The notes below the pieces were generated by a model that saw only the letters and a program-made list of their open reading frames with translations, was not told the origin of the DNA and ran no database searches. A DNA stretch of 64,000 bases from Gloeophyllum trabeum ATCC 11539 (taxonomy: Eukaryota; Basidiomycota; Agaricomycetes; Gloeophyllales; Gloeophyllaceae), in NCBI RefSeq assembly GCF_000344685.1, contig NW_006920411.1, positions 473,192 to 537,191 on the forward strand, read 5' to 3'. Position 1 is the first letter of the stretch; the number at the start of each line of letters is the position of its first letter. Shown here in pieces: positions 11,525 to 58,197 of this stretch. Both the position numbers and the translations under genes were made by a program.

Positions 11525-11913
11525 GGCGTCGAGAAGGACTTATACGACCGTATGTACCTGACTCCTATCCGCCATGTACATTGATCTGATATCTGCAATG
11601 AAGCTGCTGCCATTGTTAATCTGGTGCCCATAGTGAAGCCGCTGTAAGTGTATTAGCGGCGTCACGTGATAACCCACTGACGGGGGTGGTCCGAACTCAG
11701 ATCGGAATGACCAGCATGGATGATATACCCGAAACATCCTTGTGTGCCGCGGTCGCGCTACACAGCTTCGTTTAGCCCGCAATGACTCTCAGAGATATCT
11801 GCGTCATTCTTGCCACACCGCCCTTTCTTGGATTCCCCACTCACTCGCGGTTATAAACTCACCTCCACCTTTGCACTCACCCGTATCCCCGAACTTGTCT
11901 CATAGAGAATACG
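11525..11913. other. Intergenic, cyclophilin 3' side and BTB promoter
   Basis: About 390 bases holding the 3' end of the cyclophilin transcript and the promoter of the BTB gene. A TATA box is listed separately. No further gene is seen. Confidence 0.5.
11852..11857 (+). promoter_or_regulatory. TATA box of the BTB-domain gene
   Basis: TATAAA in the context GGTTATAAACTC lies 57 bases before the start codon at 11914, followed by a pyrimidine-rich stretch (CTCACCTCCACCTTTGCACTC). That spacing puts transcription start close to the ATG, as expected for a compact fungal gene. Confidence 0.55.
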
Positions 11914-12750
11914 ATGCTTAACGCCATTAAGGACCCCTGGAATTCACCCGACGCGGATATCATCCTCATCTGTGCCCCAGACGAAACCGACATTCGTCTG
12001 CACAAATGCATCCTCTCCGCGGCGTCCCCCTTCTTCGAGAACATGTTCTCCCTGCCGCAGCCGTCATGTTCGGACACGCCCCTGCCAGTCGTGCACATCT
12101 CAGAGGCCAGCTCCGTCATGGAGACAGTGCTGCAATTTGTGTATCCGATGCTTGACCCCGACATCGGCACCCTGGACGAGCTCGCCGAGGCGCTCGCAGT
12201 CGCGATGAAGTACGAATTGACAGTCGCCATCCATGCCCTCAGAAAGCTCTTGGTTTCACCGCGCTTCGTCGAGAAGGAGCCCATGAAAGTCTTCGCCATT
12301 GCATGCCGCTTCGACCTCGACGACGAAGCAAAGGTTGCATCGCGACACACTCTTTCCACCGACATCCTCGCCACACCCCTATCCGACGACCTCAAACACA
12401 TCTCCGCCTACTCCTACCGCCGGCTGCTCGACCTGCATCGCACGCGGGCCGCGGCCGCGCAAGAGGTGCTGCAATCCTCCAAACCGGGGTCCGTCAACAC
12501 GATCAAGTGCATGCAATGCAGCGCGGTCGCGTTCGGGAGCTACATGCCCCCGCGGTGGTGGACGGACTTTGAGAAGCGCGGCTGCGAGGAGCTCGCGGTG
12601 CGCCCCTGCACGCGGGTGATATTCTCGATGGCGTTCTTGTCGCAGTCGGCCAGGTCGGGGTGTCCGAGGTGTGCGGAGAGCGTGCTGAACTCCTACGTGT
12701 TCATCGAGGGCCTGAAGAAGCGGATCGACGAGTTACCGGACACCATCTAA
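11914..12750 (+). CDS. BTB/POZ domain protein, intronless
   Basis: One exon of 278 codons, unusual among its intron-rich neighbours. Residues 12-130 show the BTB fold: SPDADIILIC...ETDIRLHKCILSAASPFFENMFSLPQ, then VVHISEASSVMETVLQFVYPM and LAEALAVAMKYELTVAIHALRKLL. These are the dimerisation strand-helix pattern and the HKxxLxxxSPFF core. The C-terminal half has a CMQCSA...C...CPRC spacing of cysteines (CMQC near residue 200 and CPRC near 250) that might bind zinc. Basidiomycetes have many such BTB proteins, often thought to act as adaptors for ubiquitin ligases; partner and target are unknown here. Confidence 0.85.
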   Translation: MLNAIKDPWNSPDADIILICAPDETDIRLHKCILSAASPFFENMFSLPQPSCSDTPLPVVHISEASSVMETVLQFVYPMLDPDIGTLDELAEALAVAMKYELTVAIHALRKLLVSPRFVEKEPMKVFAIACRFDLDDEAKVASRHTLSTDILATPLSDDLKHISAYSYRRLLDLHRTRAAAAQEVLQSSKPGSVNTIKCMQCSAVAFGSYMPPRWWTDFEKRGCEELAVRPCTRVIFSMAFLSQSARSGCPRCAESVLNSYVFIEGLKKRIDELPDTI

Positions 12751-18686: not shown

Positions 18687-21172
18687 TTATGCTCGAAGCC
18701 CGACCGTCCGTGGAGGCGATAGCGGCCCTCCTGACAATGGTCGAACCGGCTGAGGAGCTTTTAGACGGGTTGGCGAGGTTTTCAATGTGGCTTGGTCGGG
18801 TGGCCGGATCGTTGGAGCCGAGTCCTCCTCGAAAGACGGTGTCTCCTCCAACGTCGTGGCTTCGCCGTTCTGAGCTACTGCTGCTGCACGCGCAAGCCGA
18901 TCTCTGGCAGCCTTGCACGAGTCCTGCAAGTCTCCAGGCCTAACCTCAACCTTGCGAGGTTCCGCCTTCTCGACCTTCACATCGCTCGGCTCCCTCTGCA
19001 GCGACGGCGACGCGCTCTTCCCCCGCCCCGCCGCAACATTCCTCACCACCCTCGGTCCGATCGGCGCCGTCGTCCCGCCTACAGATAACAACGACTCATC
19101 GTCAGCGCGGCCGCTCAGTACCCCGCACGTCCCGAGGACAACGTCTGGCCTCACCGTGTCCTGGGAGCTCCGCGAATGGACACTCGGCCTAGGGTGCACG
19201 ACGCGCTCGTAGAACAGCATGAACGCGCCCGAGCCCTCCGCGAGCACGCTCTCGAGCCCGCACTCGCGCACGCTGTCGTCGCTGATACGCAGCCAACCGC
19301 GGCCGGGCGAGGCGGGAAATTCGTCATCGCGCACGGGGCCGTAGCGCTGGCATTTCTCGCACTCACAGCCGAGCGGACAGACGAGGCGCGGCGGGGCGAA
19401 ACGGCGGGACCCGGCGGAAGGAGGCCGAGGTTTACGGCGGAAGCAGACGTAGTGTCCGAAGGAATGCTGGCCGTAGTGGCAGACGACCGCGGCAAGGCGA
19501 TAGAGCGTGCGAGGGGTAGCGTATGTTGCTGGGGTAGGTGTCGTCGAGCGGGGAATGGGCGGGGGAGGGGAAGAGATGGGCGCGGATGGGGTGGTGGACA
19601 GGTTGCCAGATGTGGTGTACGGCGTGAGGTCAAGGATTTCAGGGAAGATGACTCGACATGTATTTTTGGTGGCGTAGTGGCCATATATCATTGAGCGATT
19701 TAGGTGAAGAGCCAATACAGGAGGCGGCTATCATGAGTTAGACGGGAATCATTTGGCAGTCCAAATAGCTCCTCGCTTACCCGTGCAATCATTGCTTGTT
19801 TCGTCGACGCCCGACTGAACACCTTCTCCATCTTAACGCCACGGATGTCCTCTTCTATCTTCCCCTGTTCAAGAGCAGCCTTCACCCGGGATTCTAACTT
19901 CCTAGCCTCTCTTGCTCGCTTCTTCTTGGAAGATGATGGATTCTCGTCGTGGCTAGCAGCTTCGGTCAATCGCTCGGCCTCTTGGGCTAGACGTCGATGG
20001 GTTGCTATAAGCGAACACTTCCGACAGATACAGTCTGTGAGCACTTCTAGTCGTGTGTAGTCGGCAAGACACTCTTCAAGACGACAGCTCGCCTGCTAGC
20101 TTGTCAGCGACGACAAGGGAGAGGAGGATCTCAGCGCACATATCGAGGCAGAGCCAGTTGCCAGTTGTCAAACGCAAAGTGCATGACTGCCTCCGTGTAC
20201 CCACAATCCATACAGCTCCGCCGATTGGCGGTAAGCCCGTCAAACACACTCTTCCCGATATCTCTACTGATATCAGAAGGCATATTTGCTAGTCCCGCGA
20301 ACCCTCGATCCCGATGACCCTCCTTGTCCACTTCCAATGCCTCTTTCTTGATGCACTCTGACAAAAGCTGGAAGAGCTCTTGCGCATCTTGGTGCTCTCT
20401 CGAGGAAAAGAGCGCGTTGTGTTTCCCTCGGGACTGGTTGGACAAGGCGTTGATAATGTCTACAGGTCGGATAGAGGTGGGGTGTGAGCGGGGAGTGTTC
20501 AGGACTAGGGACGGTATCATGTCAGTACATAGATCTCCAGGCGGGACACGAAACGCACTATACAGTAAGTCCCTGAGCGCATCCAAGACCGGCGTCGGTA
20601 CATCCAAAGCTTCCGCTTTGGCGTGAATCCGCTCTATATGAGGTTGCAGATAGCATAGCGACGCCATGGCCTGCCGCATACGTTATAAGAACCGTCGGAA
20701 ATCCTGTCACACTGCGATACCGACCTGTAAAGTCGAATTCATGAAGCAGTACGTCCCGGAAATATTCACCAGACCGGGATAGTAGCCATCTTCCGTCCCC
20801 GCAATATCCTGGTCATTGTCTGGACCTTCATAAGCAGTAATTACAAGCGTATCTGACGTATAACGCACCGTGTTTCGCACTACCGTTCGCCACCAGCTGG
20901 TCTGCTCGTGTGCGGACATGTTTCTTCTTCAGTTTGCGCCGGTCCGAAGAAGAGGCCGAAGACGAGCTCGCGCTTGACGAGTTCCACGAGAAGGAAAGGC
21001 CCAGAGACTCGAGGAACATGGCGAAAGAATCGAAGACGGACGGGGAGTGGGCCTGGAAGGAGAACGCGAGGAGCGGGATGACTAAAACGACGGCGAGCGG
21101 GGCGAATTGCTGCACCAGCGGGTTGGCAGAGAGAGTCTGACACAGGGCTCTGAGCTGTTCCAAGGGGCTCAT
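18687..21172 (-). CDS. UBP1: Membrane-anchored ubiquitin C-terminal hydrolase (Ubp1/USP30-like)
   Basis: Starts at 21172. Residues 20-40 (QFAPLAVVLVIPLLAFSFQ) form one membrane segment, followed by a Ser-rich and basic linker. The cysteine box reads YYPGLVNISGTYCFMNSTLQ (near 20730-20770). Its active Cys is present, but the usual G-N-T-C is replaced by G-T-Y-C. Downstream are AMASLCYLQPHIERIHAKAE, QDAQELFQLLSECI, NRRSCMDCGYTE (zinc-like cysteines), CRKCSLI, the LALHLNRS box and the His box YGQHSFGHYVCFRR near 19440. It ends WLRISDDSV...GAFMLFYERV and a long disordered tail. This order matches USP-family deubiquitinases with an N-terminal anchor, such as yeast Ubp1 and animal USP30, acting at the ER or mitochondrial surface. 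Several introns interrupt the gene. Confidence 0.85.
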
Positions 21173-21331
21173 TGAGACGGCGGCGGGCAGCTCAAGCGTC
21201 GCGGTACGGACACATCAGAGATGCTGCCGTGCGATGTAAACCTTGGAAAGCTGGAAACGAATGCAGGTCCTACTTGGGTCGTGGAAAAGAGTTTTCCTGA
21301 ATATATAACATATGTGCCATTTCGAAAGTAT

Positions 21332-21414
21332 GGCTACCTGGCGCAATGGTAGCGCGTTTGGCTTCGATTGCCTAGCGTACCAAAAGGTTGCAGGTTCGAG
21401 TCCTGCGGTGGTCA
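21332..21414 (+). tRNA. trnR-TCG: tRNA-Arg (anticodon TCG) with an 11-base intron, copy 1
   Basis: Cloverleaf: acceptor GGCTACC/GGTGGTC with two G-T pairs, D arm GCGC/GCGC, anticodon stem TTTGG/CCAAA, T arm GCAGG-TTCGAGT-CCTGC. The anticodon loop CTTCGA(A) gives TCG once the 11 bases TTGCCTAGCGT after position 37 are removed. A near-identical copy lies at 23899-23981 on the other strand, on the far side of the Cdc7 gene. Confidence 0.92.
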
Positions 21415-21566
21415 TAACATTTTCTTGGCTTTTAGTTGTACGGTCACGTGTACAGCACGCGTTCTCAGACGCGCTCAACCTTGACATCACTTTGGCGCTC
21501 TGGTACGCGACAGGACCGTCTGTTTCCTTTTGTCTGTGCCTCTGCGACTCGTCTACTTCTACGCAA

Positions 21567-23792
21567 ATGGCTACAGCCACGTTCCTGTCGCAACACTCGT
21601 CCAATCCTCTGGAGGCCTCGCCATCAAACACTCGCAACCGATCCTACCGGCAGCGTTACATGAATGCTCTGGCAGTTCCGCAAGGCCACGCTTCATCCGA
21701 AGATCCTATAAGTGGCTTTGATATGCCTGAGAGAGAAGAGTATCACACGCACCTCGCCCAGCTATTCCCCAGGATGTCCCACATACATTCGAAGCAGGAT
21801 AACGTCGACCTACCAAATAGCAAAGTGGAACCGCTGTTGCCGAAACTGCCCGTCGAGGAAAACCTAGTGGAAGAGGCTGATGATGCACTGGAAGAGCAGT
21901 CAGATGATTCTACTTCTGAGGCTAGCACGGACGAGGAGATGACCATCAAATTAAAGCCACAGGAGGAACAAGACGAGATAGAGGAGGAGATCGAAGACCT
22001 CGAGGAGTCTGTCCCGCAGTTGACGGACGACTACAAGATAGTAGACAGGCTTGGGACGGGTACGTTCTCATCTGTGTACAAAGCCATCGACCTGGGGTAC
22101 CAGTGGAAGTGGGACAACTCGGTGTGGCACGGCCGACATCCGCCTTCCTCGTCCGCGCATTATCAGTCGGTCCCGCACTCGGACTCGGCGAAGGTCTTCG
22201 TTGCGATCAAGAGGATTTATGTTACGAGTAATCCTGAGCGCATACGGAACGAAATCGCGATTATGGAGGAGTGCAGGATGTGCCGGCACGTTTCGCAGCT
22301 TATCACTGCCTTCCGGCACCATGACCAAGTGGTATGCATTATGCCTTACCATCGAAACGAGGACTTCAGAGTATGTTGCGGTGTCGAATCATATAATGCA
22401 AGTCTCATGCCCTCTTTACAGCTTTTCTACCGTAATTTGCCTATGGAAGGCATCAAGTCGTACTTTCGTTGCCTCTTTCGGGCCTTACGAGATATACATG
22501 CTAGGGGTATAATTCATCGCGATGTCAAACCTGCCAACTTTCTATTTGACCCCCGAACGGGGGTCGGAACATTATGCGACTTCGGCTTGGCTAGTGTAAG
22601 TGCCTCTTCTTCCCAGCAGGCGCGGGCACTGTACTGCGACCCAACTATCTAAGGGCTTACGCTCTCATAGAGAATGGAACCCGGGCCGACACTTGGGACC
22701 TGTCTACACTCAGGCCCCACGCGCGAGAAGCCTCACGGCCAACTACGCAACCTCGGCGACCTGGATTTCGACTGGATCAAGAAAATGCAGAAGGAGGCAC
22801 GGCAGAAGAGCTCCTGGCCCTCTGACAGAGTCGGCTACCTGGAAAAAGACCACCGGTAAGGACCAGTCGCTGTCTCCCTGGTCATGCTGTGATGACGGCG
22901 TGCTTGATAGACCGCCGTCGAAGGCAAACAGGGCTGGCACGAGAGGCTTCCGAGCGCCGGAGGTCCTGCTTAAATGTGGGGAGCAGAGCGGTGGTGAATA
23001 CCCTAGTAGACTGTATTGCGACTAAGCTGAAATTCTGACCACAGCAATCGACGTCTGGTCCGCGGGAGTTATCCTACTATTTTTCTTGACCGGCAAATTC
23101 CCATTATTCCAGTCTAACGACGACATAGAAGCATTAATGGAAATTGCTGTCATCATCGGTAAACGGAAGATGGAGAAAACGGCTACTCTACACAGTACAT
23201 TTGTCCACCCATCCCAGTTGCCGGCCGTGTCATTAACTATGATGATACTGCAGGTCGAACCTTCGCGACTAACGTGCCCTCAATAACACCGGACGGTATC
23301 ACCTGGCGAGAGTTTGTAACGCGTCAGAATCCGGACTTGTTGACACCACCCAAGCCAGACTTACGCTATTATCCGTACTCATGCCGGGGATCCTCCTCAG
23401 ATAACCTACCGGCGTCGTCTGCCAAGTCCTCGAAGTCGGATCTCGAATCCTCGTCGCCGGAGCCGCCAGATCCCGACACTCATGCGGCGGATATTGAATG
23501 CGCCCTGGACCTTCTCGAGAACGTGATGAACCCGGAATGCACGAAACGGTTCACTCCTAGGGACGCCCTTTACCATCCTTTCCTCGTGGAACCGGAGAAG
23601 TATGAGGACGACGAATACTTCCCTCATCCGTTCGGAGAGGGAGTATGCTCAGAGTTCCACATGATCGACGACGAGACGGACGAACTGTGTGTTCGGGTTG
23701 GCACAGAGGACGGAGAGGAGATCCTTAGGGTCGAGGCAGGGGAGGGTATAGCGATTGGATCACACCCTTGTGAATTCCACCACGACTTGTAG
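21567..23792 (+). CDS. cdc7: Cdc7 protein kinase (DDK catalytic subunit)
   Basis: The start at 21567 (MATATFLSQHSSN) gives a long acidic N-terminal extension rich in E and D before the kinase core at 22020. Visible: LGTGTFSSVYKAID (glycine loop), FVAIKRIYV (Lys near 22209), IRNEIAIME (alpha-C Glu), IIHRDVKPANFLFD (catalytic Asp 22521-22523), TLCDFGLAS (DFG Asp 22578-22580), a long insert between DFG and APE, TRGFRAPEVLLKC, AIDVWSAGVILLFFLTGKFPLF and KRFTPRDALYHPFL. The large kinase inserts, including one after VYKAIDLGYQ and the long activation-loop insert, plus RGFRAPEVL are hallmarks of Cdc7 rather than CDK or CK2. With its Dbf4 partner it phosphorylates MCM to fire replication origins. Stop TAG 23790-23792. 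At least six introns. Confidence 0.92.
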
Positions 23793-36968: not shown

Positions 36969-36978
36969 AATCCTCCCT
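36969..36978 (+). repeat. Target site duplication, left, of the 6.1-kb element (AATCCTCCCT)
   Basis: Ten bases directly before the element end CAGGCTCC; repeated exactly at 43111-43120 directly after the other end. Confidence 0.93.
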
Positions 36979-37281
36979 CAGGCTCCTAAAACCATCCGTC
37001 TCGCGTCCTCGTTCCTCTCTACTAGGACACGTGTGAAAATGTTTATATAATACAATCTATTTTTACAGAATTTCCTGATTAAGATGACTAGTGAGGAAGA
37101 GGACGCTATGAGACGGCTGGCGGAACTCGTCGTCCGAGCTTTCTCCGCAATTAGGTAAGCCCTCTAAGCGACTAAGAAAATGGCCTTTTCAAAGTCTCGT
37201 CGACTGCCCGATCCGGTTATCCGAAAGCGCTCTGTCACGCTCGTCGTGACCGGCCTTGCGTCCTCCTTGAGGACAAGCTAG
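36979..37281 (+). repeat. Left terminal inverted repeat
   Basis: Matches the complement of 42810-43110 along its whole length with at most a few changes, until TCCTTGAGGA, after which the two arms part. It contains an inward-facing open frame starting MAFSKSRRLPDP. Confidence 0.9.
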
Positions 37282-37332
37282 TTTCCTAGTCAGGCTACAG
37301 CTGTCTTCTTAGATCAGATCATTGTGCACACT

Positions 37333-39949
37333 ATGTCATCATCCAGTGAACAGAAGTGGACATTCAAGCGTATCCGAGATCTCGTGCAAGCAAAGCTCGG
37401 TAAGAGACCTTGCCTATGGCAGATGAAAGTTGCCCTTGCCCTGTACGAAGGGAAGAAAGATGTTGTAGCAGTGGCGCCAACCGGTGCTGGCAAGACACTC
37501 TCATTCTGGATTCCATTACTTATGGTTCTCGAGGACGGACAGGACAAGACAGGTGTGATCATTACCCCTTTAAACCTACTTGGTAAGCAAAGTGCAGAGT
37601 CGGAGCTTCTGGCTCGTGCGGGTATCAGCGGGGTAGCAATCGAGGCGAAGACTGCAACGGATAAGACATTCAAGGCACAGTTTTCTAGATATTCTAATAC
37701 ATCATCTTGCTGATGACTGAATCCTTGCAGGATGTGGAAGCTGGGAAGCATAGAGTCCTTGTAGTTAACCCCGAGATCCTATCAATGGAGGGCGGCCATT
37801 TCGAGAGGCTGTGGAAGAAGTCGGCCTTCACATCCAAGCTCTTGTACTTCGCGTTTGACGAAGGACATTGTGTGAGCACATGGAGCGAGTTCCGGAACAA
37901 ATACAAATATATGGCAAATCTCCGGTATCTCATTTCGGAAGCGATACCGTTCTATGTAACTTCAGCCACGCTCCCGGACCCCATTCTCCATGATGTCGTT
38001 AGCATCCTCCAGCTACATCCAAAAAATACGGAGTACATCTGTCGATCAAATGATAGACCAGATATCCATCTGGCTGTGCATCGCATGCTGTGGCCCGCAA
38101 ATTCCTTTCGGGATCTTGATTTCATAATAAAATCTGGATTTAAGGAAGGTGATCCGCCACCTCCGAAATTCCTCATATTTTTCGATGCTCGGAAGGAGAC
38201 CGAGGCGGCGGTTAAGCATCTACGCTCGAGGTTACCAGAGTCACTCCGGGGTAAAATCAAATATTTCCATTCGGTAATGACCTCCGAGTACCGAGAAGAT
38301 GAATACAACGCGCTGCGGGATGATGAGATATGGGGACTCTGCGTAACGGATGCATTTGGAATGGTACGTTGCAGAAATAGGAACTGGACTTATATTGAAA
38401 TGGCTCGGTTACAGGGGCTTGATTTACCTGATGTCAAGCTAATCATACAATACAGAGTCACCTGCGATGCAAATACATTATGGCAACGATTTGGCCGTGG
38501 AGCGCGGGGAGATGGACAAGAAGGCATTGCCGTGCTCTTTGCAGAAAAGAGCTTCTTTGACAGCGAACGCGCAAAAGCTGCAGAGAAAAGGGCAAAGAAA
38601 CCGAAGAAACGGAAGCCACGTACACAGAAGGTCAAGGACTCGAATGCGAAGCGTGCCCGCATCGCTCCTACTACCAGCGAGTCTCACGCATCAGAAGACG
38701 AAGATGATCCTGATGCTGATAGTGATGGGATGTCAGATAGTACGGCACCAACAGATACTGAGGCTGGCAGGGCCACTGTACCAGAGACATCCGGAGCCGG
38801 ACACGGGGAGCAAGGCAGGGCGCAGAATTTGGAGAAAGTCGCTGAAGATGCTGAGCTGGAGGAAAGGCGAGCTGTTTATCTGGAGCCGTTGAAGCGAGAC
38901 GAAACAACTATACGCAACGCGCAATCAGCACGTTTGCTCCATCCAGTAATGGACGATTTCATTAACGCCCCGACACGGGGATTTTTGTGCCGGAGGAAAC
39001 CCATGTCATTGTTCTTCTCGAACGACAAGCGTGGTGAGTCCTTCTATAGATCCGATTTTGGAGAGTATTCTCATGACCGTATGCTAGCCTGGGATCATCA
39101 AGATTGCGATAAAGGCTCACCTGCAGGCTGTTCGCGCTGTCGTCCCAAGCAGTCCCGACTCTGCTGTGATCTGTGCTCCCCCCTCGAGAGGTCCTTGACT
39201 CTATTCGGCTCCTCGGACTTGGATGCACCGGCGGCGAAGATGTCCAAGAGATCCCCACTCAAGCCATACGACTACACCGATAAGACTCAAGAATTGCTCA
39301 CGGAGCTTCTCGACTGGCGTCGACGAACAGCACCACTCCAGCTTTCAAGCTCAGCCCTGAAGAAATTCGGCCCCGATGTTTTCATTGGCTTGAAGACATT
39401 GCAACGGGTAGTGGACTGCGCGCACCATGGCAAGATGAACTCAGTCGAGAATCTCAAGCGCGAAACAAGCTGGAAGAGCGACTGGGCTGATCGACACGGC
39501 CTGTCGCTGCTGGAGACTGTGCAGAAGTTCTACCCGCAGGCCGAGCCGTCAGTGCCTCCGAGCGGGGGGTCGAAAAGCAGCGTTTGTAACGTGCTCACGG
39601 ACTCTTCTGCAGCGAACACCGATAACACCAGTGCGCGCAAGCGGAAGCCGGTGACTTGCAGCCGTTGTAAGCAAGTCGGACACAACAGTACGTGCTTGTA
39701 TCAGATCGTGTAGTCTCTCTCAGTCCCATCCCTGTACCATAGATCGAAATGCGAAGTGCCCACTGAAATCAAGCCAATCTACCAATGTACCTGCCACAGA
39801 CAGCGAGAATGCGCCACCGGCGGGACCCTCAAATACAGCAAATGGTGAGTAGCCAGTACTTTAGATTCACGCCCAAGTCATCACTCCGTCTGCTAGGTTA
39901 TACGGTCATCCAGTTCCAGATCAACCTCGACAATCCCCCGCCTTGCTAG
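37333..39949 (+). CDS. RecQ-like superfamily 2 helicase with C-terminal zinc knuckle (transposon-borne)
   Basis: Starts at ATG 37333 (MSSSSEQKWTFKRIRDLVQ). Helicase motifs in order: LWQ (motif 0), AVAPTGAGKT (Walker A near 37475), NPEIL, FDEGHCVSTW (37857-37868, DEGH rather than DEAH), YVTSAT, LIFFD, GLCVTDAFGM|GLDLPDVKLIIQY joined over an in-frame 51-base intron at 38361, and LWQRFGRGARG (motif VI near 38490). Then a Lys/Arg-rich linker (nuclear localisation likely), a region rich in Cys (DCDKGSPAGCSRCRPKQSRLCCDLC) and, split by an intron, a knuckle CSRCKQVGHN-R-N-A-K-C. Further small exons end ...LDNPPPC, TAG 39947-39949. One intron near 37676 seems to use a GC donor. The helicase probably unwinds element or target DNA during transposition; that is inference. 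Confidence 0.8.
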
Positions 39950-39953
39950 TTCA

Positions 39954-42716
39954 TCATACATCGAGATCACCGTCATCACCGTCGACATTTTCTACATCAA
40001 CCCACTCTTCCGCATCATCTTGCTTTGTTTGTTTTTGTGTAGTATAGAATTGCATACCATCCCGTAGTGTATCGGGAATGATATGTGCCGATTTTCGCCC
40101 GGGAACCTCTGCGTGAGTGGCCATCTTCCTCATATATGTTACGAGCTTATTGATCGTCTTCTGCATCATAGGTGGAGAGTGCTTGAAAGTCCTGTGGTCC
40201 ATAACAAACATCTTTTCGAAATTGATTCTCATATTCTTCATGACCCCGATCAAGCTGGAATGCATCAGTATATGATTTTTCGTATGGTTCGAGTATTTGC
40301 CGCCGTAAATCCTCTGTTGTAATATCATCAGAAGACTGGTAATGAAGCCTCAATTCTGCTTGCCTTGATGTACAGGTTATTGTGCTCTACCCACCAATCA
40401 ATCCCTCGGAACGAATGTGGTTTGCCTTTCGGGTTGCAGAGAATATTCATCCGGATTGCGCGCCTTCGAAAGGTTAGTTTTCAACCACTGTTCACCGTTA
40501 TTTCACTTACTTCAGTCTCTCAGGGTATACGAAATGAACGTCGTGTAAGAACTTCACCATCTGCGTTGCGTACTTATGCTTCCCGCACGCGCGGAAAATA
40601 AATACCCAAGGCATGAAGCAATCCTCCACCCGGCCAATGTCACCTGCGTTCATGGCGTAGGTCAACTCTTCGTACAGCAGGCAGTGCTGATTTTTGAGGA
40701 GGGTATTCTCATACTGTTCGTCTCGGACTTTCCCCGGCCGAAGCCGCTGCGTAGGGAGCTCCTGACCGGCGACATAGTTACGCACAAGGTGCGAGGAAAC
40801 GGTCACAATCTCCTCCCACGTTGGTTTTGCAGCGGCCCATTTCTCTAGGCTGTCGATGTTGTGGTTTAGCTTGTGCACCTGCTCTCTCCAACAGTCCAGC
40901 CGTGATGCAATGCCAACGTGCTGGATGACTTCGTGCATCCGGCGGAAACCAGGTTTGCTTGATATTTTCCCTGTTTCTTTTGGCCGAATCTCACCGACTT
41001 GTTTCAGTAGGCTTGTCTCGTCATCACGCGCAGCCCTAGGACTAATGAAGATCTTCCATATTGCATCGGCACATGCCATCTTCAAATGGAAGAGCCCCAT
41101 AACGAAGACGACAAACTGGAAACGCCGCCATGGCGTCGACTCCTCGCTTCGCGATTTCTGGAGGCTCTGGACACGCTCGCACGTTGAGAGATCTCCGTGG
41201 ACCAAGATGACGTGATCATCTATGTCTGCGGAATCTTTTGGAGTCCGCGGCTCACGCTTGTCACCAATACCGCCTTGCCGAAAGAGGTTCTCCATAGCGT
41301 TCGCATTGCCCTGAACTGTCGACTGGTTTTCATCCATTGCTGCGGCGGGAACCTGCTTGGACTTCACTACTGGAATGGAATCTATCGGCTCGGGATCGGT
41401 GAGTTCTTTCACAAACTGCTGGAAGTATGGTGGACCGTGTGATAGAAGGTCACGCAGGAACGCCCAAGCATTGAAACGCTGGCGGCGATCCAAGCCTGAC
41501 TCATGCTCTTCTTCGGGATGTAAGTCCAATAGTTCTGTCCAGTCGATGTCCTCATTTGCTGACTTATAGGTTTTTGGGTTATTTTGTGATTTACGCCACA
41601 AGTCCTCCGAGCACTGCAAATCCTCGCGTGTAACGCCATGGTCAAGCTGTAGAAGTGTCCCGGAGGTCAAGTGCAAGATAGGATCCTCCGGGTTCTGGAC
41701 GGTGGGCACGCTGTGCTTAATCTCAACATCGAAATTGTCATATGCATATGCCGCAAGAAGGGTGCGTCCGAGTTCCCTTATTTCGCGTCCAGCCTCCTCT
41801 GAGAGGCTTGAGATGGCGTGATCGATGGCTGAACATGATATCGAGATGCCTAGCTGCGATAGGAGCTCAATGACGGCTTCGGGCGCATTGCAAGAGTGCA
41901 GGAATATGCCGACCATGCTCTGAAGTACGTTGCAACGTTGGTTCGTACTCTGCATCATGACGCTCATGCACAGCACCTTCTTCTGTTTGTTATGTCAGCT
42001 GCTTTTCTTATGACACCCACCGCTGTGCTCGTACTCACCATTGTAAGTACCGCGTCGTCCCGTTCTGCTGCCTTATACGGGTCTTGCTCACTCTCCGGAT
42101 CATCTGGATCCTTGACTAGATCGGGTAAGTCAAACTGCTTCCACAGTGCATCTTCATCATCCGAAGCCGGTACATCTTCATCGGCATCCTGCATGATGGT
42201 GTCTTCATCACCACCCGCAGCAGCGGCAGGTGCTGTTCCATGACGACGACTATAGTTTCTGTCAACAGATCGCTTCGCCCGTGCAGCATCGCGCCGCCGC
42301 CGCTGAACAAGTACTGAATCCGCGGAGAGCATCACCCCAAGCATATCCCATACGAGCGGTGCCAAGGTACGCATATGGTTCGCTATGTCCTCCAAGTCAA
42401 AACTCTCTAATACAGCATTGGTAACCGTCTGTGCGTGGAAGTGCAACCCAGTTTGCGTGTGCGTCAATGCGGTGATCTGTTTCGAATATGTTTCCTTCAG
42501 CAAGGTGTGTGCCGATTGCATTGTAGCTTCGCGGCTCGCTGGGTGTCGAGAAAACCGCTGAATGATATTTGGTGCATTGACAACTAGCTCCTGTACTGAC
42601 TCATGGCCCTCAAGATCTTTATTGTCGAGCAGCGAGAGGACAAGATCAGACACAGTACTCCGTAGAGCCCTTAGGGAATCCAGGACTCCCCACAGCTGTC
42701 CGGTAGATAGGACCAT
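39954..42716 (-). CDS. DUF6589 protein, candidate transposase (transposon-borne)
   Basis: Starts at 42716 (MVLSTGQLWGVLDSLRALRS). Exon 1 (to about 42044) is helical, with an acidic stretch (DEDTIMQDADEDVPASDDEDALW). Exon 2 (41976-40507) holds the conserved DUF6589 core: ISCSAIDHAISSLSEEA, AYAYDNFDVEIKHSVPT (about 41720-41745), LDHGVTREDL, VILVHGDLSTCERVQSLQKSRSEES, PWRRFQFVVFVMGLFHLKMACADAIWKIF, then FMPWVFIFRACGKHKYATQMVKFLH. Small exons add AIRMNILCNPKGKPHSFRGIDWWVEHNNLYIK and, after a GC-AG intron, NFEKMFVMDHRTFKHSPPMMQ, ending at TGA 39954-39956. The Asp residues in DNFD and HGD, followed by a conserved His block, look like parts of an RNase H-like catalytic fold, but this is inference. 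No zinc finger is evident. Confidence 0.8.
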
Positions 42717-42809
42717 GTTGGATGGGATTATTGCATTTCTTTCTCCCTGTCATTCTATATAATACTCCGCATGTTGTACTGCCTACAATATGAACAGTAT
42801 GTGCATGTT

Positions 42810-43110
42810 CTAGCTTCCTCAAGGAGGACGCAAGGCCGGTCACGACGAGCGTGACAGAGCGCTTTCGGATAACCGGATCGGGCAGTCGACGAGACTTTGA
42901 AAAGGCCATTTTCTTAGTCGCTTAGAGGGCTTACCTAATTGCGGAGAAAGCTCGGACGACGAGTTCCGCCAGCCGTCTCATAGCGTCCTCTTCCTCACTA
43001 GTCATCTTAATCAGGAAATTCTGTAAAAATAGATTGTATTATATAAACATTTTCACACGTGTCCTAGTAGAGAGGAACGAGGACGCGAGACGGATGGTTT
43101 TAGGAGCCTG
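42810..43110 (-). repeat. Right terminal inverted repeat
   Basis: Complement of 36979-37281. It ends ...GGTTTTAGGAGCCTG. The inward-facing frame MAFSKSRRLPDP also occurs here, on the minus strand from 42909. Confidence 0.9.
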
Positions 43111-43120
43111 AATCCTCCCT
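43111..43120 (+). repeat. Target site duplication, right, of the 6.1-kb element (AATCCTCCCT)
   Basis: Exact copy of 36969-36978. Confidence 0.93.
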
Positions 43121-46510: not shown

Positions 46511-49489
46511 TCACGACTCTGGTAACGAAAGGCGAGCACTCTTGGGCTTTCTACTAGTACCAACTTGGTCTTCGCTTTTCCGCTTATATGTGAAAGACGG
46601 TGCGTGTTGACCGGCAAAATGAGATAGGAGTGCTTGGTAGACGTCACGCGTGGGGTTTTGCGGGTTGCGGAAGCCCAGAAATCGAAGTCGGAGACATGAG
46701 ACGCGTCGTGCGCCCGAGTTGTATTGGGCCTTGATTTCGCGGATGGACAGGTGACTGCATTCCGGGACTCTGTCCTTAACAATTTGCGAGTATGCCACCT
46801 TTGTCTTGGACGTTTACTCGTCAGAAGCTGCTATTTGAGTGACAGTCGCCGTGTTTACTCACATCATCTGTGAATGTGCACCACTCTTCAGAGGACAGGT
46901 CTTCAGCTTGACAGACTTCATAGAACCCAGCAAAGAACAGTTTCGTGGTGGTGGAAAGATGGGAGACGTTCACAAAAAGAGCTCGTTGTTTAGACTGCGC
47001 TAGGGCGGCAAGATCTCTTTCAGATGCCGTGAAAATATATCCATCTTTACCTGGTGCATAGGGACACCAGGGATTCCGATCTAGTCTGGGGCATAGATAA
47101 CTTGTGATACCGAGGTACGAAAGAGGGTAAAGACCTTGCTTGTCCTTGGGAATGCTGTCCCACGATGAAAATTTAGAAAGAATCGGATCCAAAAACTGTG
47201 AATACCTTGTAACAAGGCCCTTCTTGCTGCCGCCGAGAGCTTTGTTTAGTTCTACCTTGGTAAAGTGCGCGATGCCATCCGAAAAATCGGGCATGTCCCC
47301 TGCATGGTTTAGTGGCGGCCCCACCACTTGGAGTGTCTCGAACTGTGCAAGCCGCCCCGCGGGGATAGGCGAGATATATGACCCTGCCAGCGGGAACATA
47401 CGGCCTCGCCCATCTGACGGAGCCCCGACTGGGGTTATTTGGGGCGGCAGTACGTGTATGAATCGGACCGGGCAATTAGTCACCTCATATTTCAACTCGT
47501 TAGCATACCCTGCGCAAGCAAACACGGATGTGACATACCTCTCGACTTGACTGCTCGTCATTATTCGGAGTAGCAGCCACGGTCTCCAAAACCGGCGCCG
47601 CCTCAGATGGGAGTCTTCCAGTATTTTCCTTGACGGGTGTGTTCATTTGAGGTGTCGCATCCAGTTGGTTCTGCAGGTCAACGATGCGACCATCCTTCTG
47701 GACAACCTCGGCGTGTAAATCCGACAGCTGTGCTACCAACGCTTCTTTCTGCTGCCGAATCGAGTCGAGTTCTTGCTCTCGGCTGTCCAAACGATCCTGT
47801 TTTTGCCTAGCCAGATCCTCCAGGTCGGATAGTTGCTTCCGGAGGGCCACATTTTCTTCTCCAAGCTTCGTCATTGCCACTTTAGCCGCCTCCGCTGCTT
47901 CATTATCCTTTTCCGCGAGAGACTTGTGCTCTGTTATCTGGAGAGAGAGCGCCTTGTTGTCTCCCTGAAGCTTGATCATTGCCACTTCTGTTAATGCCGC
48001 CGCTTCAGCATTCTTCGCCGCGAGAAACTTGTGCTCTGAAACCTGACAAGAGAGAGCTTCGTTTTCTTGCCGAAGCTGCGCCATTGCCACTTCGGACACT
48101 GCTGCTGCTTCACTGTTCTTCGCCGCGAGAGACTCGTGCTCTGACATCTGACGAGAGAGAGCTTCGTTCTCCTCCATGAGCCTTCGATTCTGTTCCGCAA
48201 GCTCATCATGCTGCCCAAGACAACCGCGTCTCCCTTATCAATGGCTCGACGGAGAGAACAGCGGACAGTCTCACCGTGACCTTGAGCTTCTCCATGTCCT
48301 CACGCACTTGCTGCATGGCTTTCATTCTCTGTATGCGTTCATCCAACTACACAGAAACGGTCAACCGCGGCTGCTCTCTTGAGCGAATATTCTTACGTCG
48401 GATAAAAGCAGGATCTTCATCTTGTTGAGCTTGCTGTTGTCCCTGTCTAGCTTCTGTACGCGAGTTGTGAGCTGTGGAAGAGAGTACACATCCCGCTAAT
48501 ATTAGTGGGAGTTCGGCATGGTCGGGGCCCAAGACGCACTGATGCTACAGTCGCATCCAATGTCTCCTTCTCATTCCGTAGATTTTGCATGTCCGAGATT
48601 GACTTGGTAAGCTTTCCAGCAGCACAGTCAGCGGTATTACTAGGCGCACGTAAGAGGAGGCACACACTTCACTCAAACACTCGTTAAGGGCAGCTTGAAG
48701 GGAAGACGTATTCCCGCGGAGGACGTTCTTCTCCTTGAGCTGCTCTTCTGCTTCATGTATCACCTTCTCTAGCTAATGTACGATGTGAGCCATGGGCGGA
48801 ATAGCATCCAGCATGAGACGTACGTCTATCTTCTCCGTTAGAACTCGTTGCAGATCCTCCTTGAGGACGTTCTTCTCTCTCACTTGCTCCTGGGCCTCGA
48901 GGAGGTCCATCTCCAACTATTCAAGTCAACGCATGGCCGTACACCAATACCTGGGAAGACACTCACCTTCGTCTTCTGCTCTAGAACTCGCCTCAGTTCG
49001 TTCTCAAATGCATACCTCTCGCGCCGCGCTTCATTAGTTACGTGATTGGACTTCTCCAGCTGAAGCAAGAGAGAACAATACGGATCAAAGGTGTGGCCAC
49101 TCTGACATACAACTGGAGGAGCAACTCACATCGCACTTGAAGCCCTCTCTCTCCTTCTCCATTTCTCTCAAGCGTATATTCAAGTCATCCTTTTCTTTCT
49201 CCAGTTCCCCCAGGCGTACGTTCAGGGTATCTCTTTCGTGTTCAAGATCTCCCAAGCGTACATTCAAGCCCTTCAGATGAGGATTATCCTCATCGACCAG
49301 GCTATAGACCGCTCCCTACCCGCTCTCAGCCACGGGCACTCGCTGCTTACGATAGACTTCTCATTGACGTACCCTCTGAAGCTCTTGCACCCGCTTCCGC
49401 AATTCAACGATCTCCATCGAATATTGCGATATCTTGCGGCCCATGTTCCCTATGAGGGTAGCGTCGAAGTCCGCCCCCGCTTCTGCCAT
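46511..49489 (-). CDS. Coiled-coil protein with conserved C-terminal domain (DUF6697-like), copy C
   Basis: Starts at 49489 (MAEAGADFDATLIGNMGRKISQYSMEIVELRKRVQELQR). Many short exons encode heptad-rich coiled coil: LNVRLGDLEHERDTLNVRLGELEKEKD, RRERYAFENELRRVLEQKTK, MEENEALSRQMSEHESLAAKNSEAAA repeated in variant form to 47550. Within it a roughly 39-residue unit (NEALS-Q-SEH--LAAKN-EAAA--EVAM-L) recurs about three times. From 47500 the globular part follows: YISPIPAGRLAQFETLQ, DGIAHFTKVELNKALGGSKKGLV, LCPRLDRNPWCPYAPGKDGYIF, ALFVNVSHL, KLFFAGFYEVCQAEDLSSEEW, ECSHLSIREIKAQYNSGARR, RLRFLGFRNPQNPTRDVYQALL and a basic tail. The C-terminal domain resembles what I remember of DUF6697; function unknown. 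Paralog of the plus-strand gene at 52950. Confidence 0.7.
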
Positions 49490-51048: not shown

Positions 51049-51360
51049 TCTTGGTGATATGTCAGTGAGGGTGTATGCTCCGGTCACATGCTTTACGTCG
51101 TCCTTGTTTATTTCTCTCATCTAGTTGCTGAAGTAATGCTGCAGTGATTGGTTCCGTGTGGCAGTGACCAAGCTAATTAACGAGACGCGTCTGCCGCCGG
51201 GACGCGATCGGCCCTGCCCTAAGCTGATCGGGATCACGTGCCTTGAAGTACACTCCGAGTCTCCTCACTGACGTTCTGGTCGCGTCGATATGACGTTCAC
51301 TACGAGCTCCATACTCACTATGATCCATTGCGCCTGCTTCAAAATCAATATGCCTCGACG

Positions 51361-51366
51361 TATAAA
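51361..51366 (+). promoter_or_regulatory. TATA-like box before the SDR gene
   Basis: TATAAA only 21 bases before the ATG at 51382. If it is used, transcription would start downstream of that ATG, and translation would begin at a later one such as 51502 (ACCATGG). This leaves the N-terminus of the SDR open. Confidence 0.35.
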
Positions 51367-51381
51367 GTCCCCCAGCTCGCC

Positions 51382-52510
51382 ATGTTCTCCCTCTTCCGCA
51401 ATACACCTCGTCTGTTCTCGAGACCACCACCAGCCGCTGCTGCAAAACCGCTCAATTTCAGGCCTACTCAGAGTTACAGATTCGTAGCGACGAAAGCAAC
51501 CATGGCCGAAGGAAACAAGAAATTTACCATCCAAAACCTCTTCAATGTTGAAGACTGGGTCGTCGTGATCACAGGCGGCGCGACGGGCATTGGCCTGATG
51601 ATGGCGCAGGCCTTCGCCAACAACGGCGCGCGCGTCTACATTACGAGCCGACGCCAAGAGGCGCTTGAGACCGCCGCGAAGACGTGGGGAACTTCTTTGG
51701 CTCATCCCAAAGGCAAGATCATCCCCATTCAAGCCGACATTACCGAGAAGCCGAGTATCGAGAACTTGGTGAAGCAGGTTTCGCAGAAGGAGAAGTATGT
51801 CGACGTGTTGGTCAACAATGCTGGTATAAGTGTAGGGAGCAGCTCGGTGGAGAAGGGGCATGAGAGCGCAGAGGAGTTGGCGAAGGAGCTCTTCAGTGAG
51901 GAGCAGAAGAACTGGGAAGATGTGTACCGGACCAACGTCATCGGGTATGTGTACCGAATGTTTTCCCAGCGTGAACCGATATACTGATGCATATATGCGC
52001 TCAGATACTTTTTTACGACAGTGGCGTTCCTTCCTCTGCTAAGTGCGGCGTCAAAGGCACGTCCAGGACATACTGCCGCGGTCATCAACAACACTTCGAT
52101 GTCTGGAATCACCCGCACGACGCAGCACCACTACAAATACAACGTGTCGAAGGGCGCCGCGATTCACCTTAACACGCTGCTGGCGCAGGAGCTCCGTCGG
52201 CCTGGTGTCAAGGTCCGCGTCAACAGCGTCGCACCTGGTATCTTCCCCTCAGAAATGACCAGTGAGTAGTATATACTTTGGGACTCCGCGCTTCCAGATG
52301 CTGACTGTTGAACTAGCCAACGAGTCGGACGAGACGAACAAGAGCCAGATCCCTGTTGACGAAAGCTACGGCGAGAAGAAGGGTATTCCGGCTGGTCGTC
52401 CAGGACGGGAGGAAGATATGGCGCAGCTCGTCCTGGCGATGGCCGTGAATGAGTACTTGTACGGGCAAACTATCGCGCTCGATGGAGGTTACCTCCTCGA
52501 GCACCCTTAA
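51382..52510 (+). CDS. Short-chain dehydrogenase/reductase
   Basis: The ATG at 51382 gives MFSLFRNTPRLFSRPPPAAAAKPLNFRPTQ, a basic leader that could be a mitochondrial presequence. A second good start (ACCATGG) lies at 51502 just before the mature domain. The Rossmann core is clear: VVVITGGATGIGLMMA (cofactor loop TGxxxGxG), ITSRRQEAL (Arg pair suggesting NADP), VDVLVNNAGIS, INNTSMSG (catalytic Ser), YKYNVSKGA (YxxxK, Tyr codon 52138-52140), RVNSVAPG and a C-terminal YLYGQTIALDGGYLL. Two introns, near 51945 and 52263. Stop TAA 52508-52510. A NAD(P)-dependent oxidoreductase; substrate unknown. It lies with the EVE gene between the two coiled-coil paralogs. Confidence 0.9.
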
Positions 52511-56862: not shown

Positions 56863-58197
56863 ATGGAAATGTCCAACCTTGATCGCAAAGACCGCGCCCC
56901 TTCCGTGAGCGAGGGGTCGTCTCGTGGGAACGTCGTCGACCACGACGCACCGAACGGTACACCAGACCCCCTTCATCCTCGGAGCATTCGAAGCTCACCG
57001 CTGCATCTGTTAGTGACTGGAGATGGCGTCTCGCCGAGGCGATTCAATCCGGGCAAGGCGACCAACCATACGGTCATAACTGTCCAGCCGCTCAAGCGGA
57101 GTGAAATGCAGGTTGGTACAAGTTGAACTGCAGTCGGGCATCATTTCCTCACACAAAGGTTTCTCCATAGCCGTCGTATGCGCAGGATCTGGGGACGGCA
57201 GAAGTGCAACATGGCATCTACGGCACTATGCTGCAGACGCTGGGTGCATGCGTAGGTCTGTGCGGCGCGGTTCCCTGCTTCCCATGCCCGAACCCATACC
57301 GCAATGTCCAGCAAGGTACGTCAAAGAAAGAGGCGTACTTTACTGAAAGTCTGCTAATATAAGTGTGCAGGTTCCGTGGGACTGGTCTCTCGGTTCGGAC
57401 AGTTCTACAAGTCCGTCGATCCCGGTCTCGTCAATGTCAATGTATGCACCGAGTCATTGCGGGTTGTGGACGTCAAGATCCAGATAAGCCCCATCGGTCG
57501 ACAAAAGGTCATCACGCGAGACAACGTCGACGTCGAAATGTATGCGTTCCCCCTCTTGCCCGCGTACCCCTCTAACCTCTCCCCTTCCCCCAGCGACTCT
57601 GTCATCTACTTCCAGATCAACAACCCCTACCGTGCCGCCTTTGGCATCACCGACCTGCGTCAAGCGCTCATCGAGCGTGCGCAGACCACGCTGCGACACG
57701 TCGTCGGCGCGCGCGCGGTCCAGTCAGTCGTCACCGAGCGCGAAGCCATTGCATTCGAGATCGCCGAAATCGTCGGCGACGTCGCGGACAAGTGGGGCGT
57801 CACCATTGAGGGCATTCTCATCAAGGACATCATCTTCTCCCCCGAGGTCGCCGCCTCGCTCTCCTCCGCCGCCCAGCAGAAGCGCATCGGCGAGAGCAAG
57901 GTCATCGCCGCCCGCGCCGAGGTCGACGCCGCGCGCCTCATGCGCCAGGCAGCTGACATCCTCGCCAGCCCGGCCGCGATGCAGATCCGCCAGCTCGAGG
58001 CGCTGCAGACCATGGCGAAGACGGCGTCGAGTAAGGTTGTCTTCGTGCCGATGCAGCTCCAGAACGACGTTATCTCGCAAGTTGCGGGACCATCCGGGGA
58101 GGGATCGTCGACGGGCAGGATGATTAGTTCTGAGGCAGGAGAAGGTATCGGTCCTGCTGGCCGTGCTGGCATTCTATCCAGTGTTGCAGATATCTGA
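56863..58197 (+). CDS. Stomatin-like SPFH/Band 7 protein
   Basis: Starts at 56863 (MEMSNLDRKDRAPSVSEG). Exon 2 encodes LGTAEVQHGIYGTMLQTLGACVGLCGAVPCFPCPNPYRNVQQ. Its hydrophobic hairpin with cysteines (CFPCP) is the stomatin type of membrane insertion and palmitoylation site. Exon 3 is the band 7 domain: GSVGLVSRFGQFYKSVDPGLVNVNVCTESLRVVDVKIQISPI, RDNVDVEM, FGITDLRQALIERAQTTLRHVVG, EIVGDVADKWGVTIEGILIKDI and a helical AAQQKRIGESKVIAARAEVDAARLMRQAADIL coil, then ASPAAMQIRQLEALQTMA and SSKVVFVPMQLQNDV. It scaffolds membrane proteins or lipids, most likely at the plasma membrane. Stop at 58195-58197; two introns. The N-terminal 60 residues are hydrophilic. Confidence 0.88.

Follow-up and report, generated by a model that had tools for sequence, protein, structure and literature searches.

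A probable AcademH-type DNA transposon of Gloeophyllum trabeum, with a DUF6589 protein as its putative transposase and a RecQ-like helicase beside it

The 64-kb window analysed here (the whole stretch of Gloeophyllum trabeum ATCC 11539 DNA; positions given without a locus name refer to it) contains a DNA transposon of 6,132 bp at 36979-43110. Its inverted ends, target duplication and two genes agree with the initial annotation, which had described a complete element of about 6.1 kb. The transposon is real and has moved, as its relatives and empty sites elsewhere in the genome demonstrate. We consider it highly likely to be an AcademH-type element, autonomous now or until recently, with a protein of the DUF6589 family as its transposase. 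It is filed as AcademH because a helicase, a DDE transposase and 9-10-bp duplications form the signature published for this group (Kojima 2020, as cited in later papers); the assignment is drawn from this signature and not from direct sequence comparison with reference AcademH elements. The reading of DUF6589 as an AcademH-type transposase and the inverted site pair in the ends, changing in parallel, appear to be new here.

The terminus CAGGCTCCTAAAACC has its first base at 36979, and its reverse complement closes at 43110. The arm alignment gave a left terminal inverted repeat of 303 nt (36979-37281, + strand) and a right one of 301 nt (42810-43110, - strand); the sole difference over the 303 columns is a 2-nt indel close to the inner edge, and the ungapped match extends over 296 nt at 100% identity, so the near-perfect inverted repeats of 301 bp noted initially hold. 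The exact 10-bp duplication initially seen at both flanks is present as well, although its copies sit just outside the interval first quoted: AATCCTCCCT occurs only twice in the window, at 36969-36978 (left copy) and 43111-43120 (right copy).

The genome was searched with an empty-site query consisting of both flanks and one copy of the 10-mer. This returned 26 rows, 22 of which cross the junction unbroken, while two are the element's own flanks and two adjoin the junction. At least 160 bases are covered at 92-98% identity in 18 of the 22 unbroken rows, and four are shorter; the 10-mer is present once in the two that were read by letter (L079 and L080). Since the target is uninterrupted at these 22 other places, they represent empty sites, as the initial annotation had anticipated, and the element was inserted into a repeat. 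The insertion point lies about 19 bp within the edge of a repeat present at some 20 further genome places.

Related copies confirmed the mobility. The terminal inverted repeat, used as query, gave 85 candidates, of which 40 were scored and all 40 matched; a 20-base end motif was found at 67 genome places versus 2 for the reversed control. For 21 of these 67 ends the stretches examined contained no partner up to 20 kb away, and these were not scored for duplications; two left ends with two right ends each were counted once. In the resulting 22 end pairs of this lineage (lineage 1, window element included) we detected 18 exact 9-bp duplications, the exact 10-bp duplication of the window element, one 9-bp duplication with a mismatch and two pairs with none, so the expected further copies with 9-10-bp duplications exist. 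An exact junction match of 8-10 bp was found in 19 of the 22 true pairs (9 or 10 bp) and in none of 462 control pairings in which these flanks were mismatched; the duplications are therefore not due to chance.

Most of these copies are short: 19 of the 22 pairs span 1.0-2.7 kb and matched neither the DUF6589 nor the helicase frames. One pair encloses an 18-kb interval in which a DUF6589 gene and a helicase are separated by other DNA, and the last two are a 5.8-kb pair with an unread interior and the window element itself. Locus L039, which the end motif did not catch and which is counted apart from the 22 pairs, holds a full element of 6.2 kb with perfectly matching 339-bp arms, a 9-bp duplication and the same two convergent genes, its transposase core being 63% identical to that of the window element. 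At L038 and L031/L061 a second right end was seen, each time with the same flank after it, which would fit a tandem duplication of the right part together with the target duplication.

The gene on the - strand (39954-42716, with introns) encodes the predicted DDE transposase. It was identified by the domain scan as DUF6589 (PF20231, E 3e-88), begins with ATG at 42716 and ends with a stop at 39954, and its introns are GT-AG at both junctions inspected by eye; we judge the gene likely to be intact. Fold prediction with the 495-aa DUF6589 frame (40510-41994) yielded an RNase H-like domain in which a large helical insertion precedes the last acidic residue, and the nearest solved folds were those of the P element and Hermes (hAT), as far as a predicted model allows. 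The acidic triad D86-D268-E457 is present in 67 of 72 alignment rows, and the predicted fold and conserved triad together are those of a DDD/E transposase. Because of this predicted DDE/RNase H fold, the conserved triad and a helicase beside the gene at all six loci, DUF6589 is very probably the transposase of the element, in line with the initial proposal of a transposase or its partner, to be compared with RNase H-like transposases. Foldseek alone gave no significant match for the DUF6589 model, and a search of DUF6589 against the sequences of solved chains gave none at E <= 1. One search returned 906 relatives at E <= 0.001, carrying names such as 'hypothetical protein'; among the best 120 of these 906 the organisms, wherever named, are mushroom-forming fungi. 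None of 20 pattern stretches in viral contigs and 66 in prokaryote genomes was confirmed as a relative of the DUF6589 alignment.

The second gene (37333-39713, + strand, with introns) encodes a RecQ-like helicase of superfamily 2, as indicated by the domain scan and by solved relatives. DEAD and Helicase_C domains were detected on the + strand, the motifs GAGKT, DEGH, SAT and QRFGRGARG were read by eye in the frames, and the nearest solved structures are WRN first and RecQ second; the top named model is recQ_fam, with a score under that model's cut-off. The two genes are convergent, as first described, and the deposited models of both are flagged partial. Their intact appearance stands better for DUF6589: the donor of helicase intron 1 (within 37600-37800) is GC in the window element and GT in the sister copy L039, which may weaken splicing and makes us less sure that the helicase gene is intact.

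The initial annotation had also suggested a distant Mutator relative. Mutator-like elements (MULEs) typically have long terminal repeats and 9-11-bp duplications, which fits the present element, but a scan of six element frames at E <= 0.1 detected no MULE domain (PF10551), and the four MULE matches of the genome, three of them over the cut-off, are located elsewhere. We regard a relationship to MULEs as very unlikely, and the suggestion was abandoned.

The two genes were found to travel together. DUF6589 is present at six loci of the genome (11 matches among 12 candidates scored) and matches to the element's helicase at six loci (10 matches among 12 candidates scored), and the two sets are identical (6/6). 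The pair is convergent at five of them and divergent at L040. The expected pairing of the two genes was borne out at these six loci. At L040 (3396-8640) the DUF6589 gene has stops and, judged by eye, a last acidic motif that seems altered; no inverted ends were detected at L040, and one end only at L042. A single-copy host gene was rejected in view of the six paired loci and the many end copies.

In other fungi, 15 of the 120 DUF6589 proteins (best of 906) lie on contigs also carrying one of the listed helicase relatives (120 of 128), a shared contig being inferred from exactly equal size, so that on long contigs adjacency is not implied. Such sharing was found for 6 of 85 DUF6589 proteins on contigs shorter than 100 kb and for 9 of 35 on longer ones, and the species agrees in all 14 named cases, two of which are G. 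trabeum. The remaining 105 of 120 have no such contig match, many contigs being too short for both genes.

A second lineage is represented by L041 and L042, whose DUF6589 frames are 21-24% identical to that of the window element and whose ends start TAGGCTCGTGACC. Twelve end pairs of this type, picked from 51 end places, showed eight exact 9-bp duplications, two with one mismatch in 9 bp and two with none, L041 being one of the latter. With 9-bp duplications at both the L041/L042-type and the window-type ends, both lineages show the 9-bp stagger. Foldback elements of 84-100 bp with lineage-2 ends were observed at L083-L088, with exact 9-bp duplications in three of six, one mismatch in two and no duplication in one. 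The idea that each foldback element pairs one outer-type and one inner-type site was true in two of six only and was rejected.

Inside the arms, end comparison revealed a site and its inverted copy. In the left end the outer site A lies at 36992-37017 (+ strand) and the inner inverted site A' at 37093-37120 (- strand); the arms are identical here, and the right-end sites, A' at 42969-42996 (+ strand) and A at 43072-43097 (- strand), were computed as the mirror of the left. Throughout lineage 1 the site measures about 26-28 bp and stands at about +14, with its inverted copy at about +111 to +156. Counting by place gave 69 ends, of which one was left out for unread bases; the inner inverted site scored above the best (29) of 1,340 shuffled controls in 54 of the 68 scored ends, and 14 had no clear inner site.

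The two sites appear to change in parallel. CCAT outside and CCAG inside were found in 52 of the 54 clear ends; ATCCTC stands in both sites in 47 of the 54 and TTCCTC in both in four, with no mixed end. Both ends of L039 have TTCCTC in both sites, but are split by an alignment gap in this count, and L039 has GTTGTC in both sites versus GTCCTC in both sites of the window element. Against parallel change, the L043 sites differ at one base (GTCCTC outside, GTTCTC inside). The sites of L041 and L042 are shared in their outer half and differ in the inner half, likewise in both copies, and the core ACCANCC(G)TCTC is common to the inverted sites of both lineages. When sites were re-paired among seven families, 4 of 5,040 permutations reached the true sum, counting the true pairing itself, and within lineage 1 it was 4 of 120; the families and the inner range were hand-chosen and relatedness is ignored, which makes this a weak test. 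After CCA, the seven families have T or C in the outer site and G in the inner one; two small lineage-2 elements carry G at this position of an outer site, so the rule is not general in that lineage. Short copies (L019, L021 and others) have ATCCTC in both sites and the readable full-length copies (window element, L039, L043) TTCCTC, and no full-length source element with ATCCTC ends was found in the readable sequence. A literature search for Academ with subterminal palindromes gave nothing relevant among the matches listed.

Most simply, the paired sites would be two inverted binding sites for one protein. Alternatively, the end signal could be a DNA hairpin, the helicase opening the ends and the transposase reading a folded A/A' stem with a mismatch. 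For both lineages a stem can be drawn in which the position following CCA is unpaired, the two sites change in parallel, and single-strand folding gave z of -5.5, -6.2, -4.8 and -3.7 for four ends; a fifth end gave -1.9, its stretch ending before the inner site did. A protein-binding site present in two inverted copies would give the same picture, however, and the 14 ends without a clear inner site and the one-base difference at L043 argue against a stem. We consider the hairpin unlikely; it concerns the mechanism and is compatible with AcademH membership. It is likewise unlikely that a DNA stem, exposed by the RecQ-like helicase for reading by the DUF6589 transposase, marks the ends of helicase-type Academ elements in general, though this, if true, would explain the need of this lineage for a helicase.

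The boundaries, duplications and empty sites are products seen directly, from which we infer catalysis, site recognition and the role of the helicase as follows. The DUF6589 transposase would recognise the two inverted sites within each terminal repeat, bring both element ends together and cut beside the YAGGCTC termini, using D86-D268-E457 as the active site. The ends would then be joined to the two target strands at positions 9 bp (10 bp in this element) from each other, and gap repair would produce the 9-10-bp duplication. The RecQ-like helicase would play an accessory part, its most likely substrate for unwinding or remodelling being the element ends, the strand-transfer complex or the gap at the donor site. 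These elements make it possible to test the reason for the presence of a RecQ-like helicase in a cut-and-paste transposon. The DUF6589 assignment would turn hundreds of proteins into transposon markers, and the defined ends and duplication lengths can be used for annotating small nonautonomous copies.

Elsewhere in the window we found domain matches to DUF6697 (46824-47642), ubiquitin hydrolase (18690-19727), protein kinase (21309-22649), BTB (11857-12747), short-chain dehydrogenase (51247-51984) and Band 7 (57358-58194); four of the ten frames scanned outside the element gave no domain match.

Among known systems, KolobokH, a fungal Kolobok encoding a RecQ helicase, resembles the element in host and helicase, and one red-alga Kolobok has the RecQ helicase on the complementary strand, as here (available part of PMC9587614). 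The same part of that source describes TTAA-specific 4-bp duplications and 5'-RR termini for Kolobok. The window element and its relatives instead have mixed-sequence duplications of 9-10 bp and 5'-CA or 5'-TA termini, and the KolobokH helicase sits downstream of the transposase domain; we rejected KolobokH, whose probability we consider close to negligible. The KDZ (Kyakuja, Dileera, Zisupton) and Plavaka groups are likewise DNA transposons of basidiomycetes, but the element frames gave no Plavaka PF18759 or KDZ Pfam match, the genome's Plavaka matches are located elsewhere, and duplications are 7-8 bp in KDZ and 2-3 bp in Plavaka according to the portion of PMC12730594 available; both were excluded. 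The resemblance to the P element and Hermes is in fold only.

AcademX carries an XPG nuclease, and would belong to the same superfamily if the AcademH assignment holds. No XPG domain was detected in the element frames scanned, and the accessible text of PMC10045372 gives duplications of 3 or 4 bp for AcademX versus 9 or 10 bp for AcademH, tied to nuclease versus helicase; AcademX was excluded. In the parts of the sources at hand, fungal Academ copies have DEAD/DEAH recQ_fam helicases, often annotated as host genes (PMC6416283), AcademH occurs in Basidiomycota, Ascomycota and Mucoromycota (PMC10799480), and putative nonautonomous Academ copies are described in another mushroom (PMC8290104). Academ-2 copies are known from a bolete (PMC12411881) and an animal Academ without helicase has been described (PMC10294476), while Academ is not mentioned in PMC9674265.

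The initial view of a group without accepted description gave way to AcademH, whose published signature, as far as the sources available describe it, the element matches. It is quite unlikely that the element belongs instead to a distinct, unnamed superfamily of DDE transposons with a helicase, which would be like AcademH only in the helicase and the duplication length. Two points weigh in its favour and against AcademH: the link to Academ is one of signature rather than of protein sequence, and a literature search found no paper using the name DUF6589 and, for PF20231, four that looked unrelated by title and abstract, although the equation of DUF6589 with this transposase may be in print elsewhere. 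The paired inverted end sites and the name DUF6589 are also absent from the available parts of the AcademH descriptions consulted. On the other side, the RecQ-family helicase, the DDE fold, the 9-10-bp duplications and the basidiomycete host all coincide with AcademH and fungal Academ as described in the available parts of PMC10045372, PMC10799480 and PMC6416283; no difference from AcademH was found in these four features. Duplications are exact in 19 of 22 lineage-1 pairs and, at 9 bp, in 8 of 12 lineage-2 pairs, and each of the six DUF6589 loci found in the genome has a helicase beside it, as expected of AcademH.
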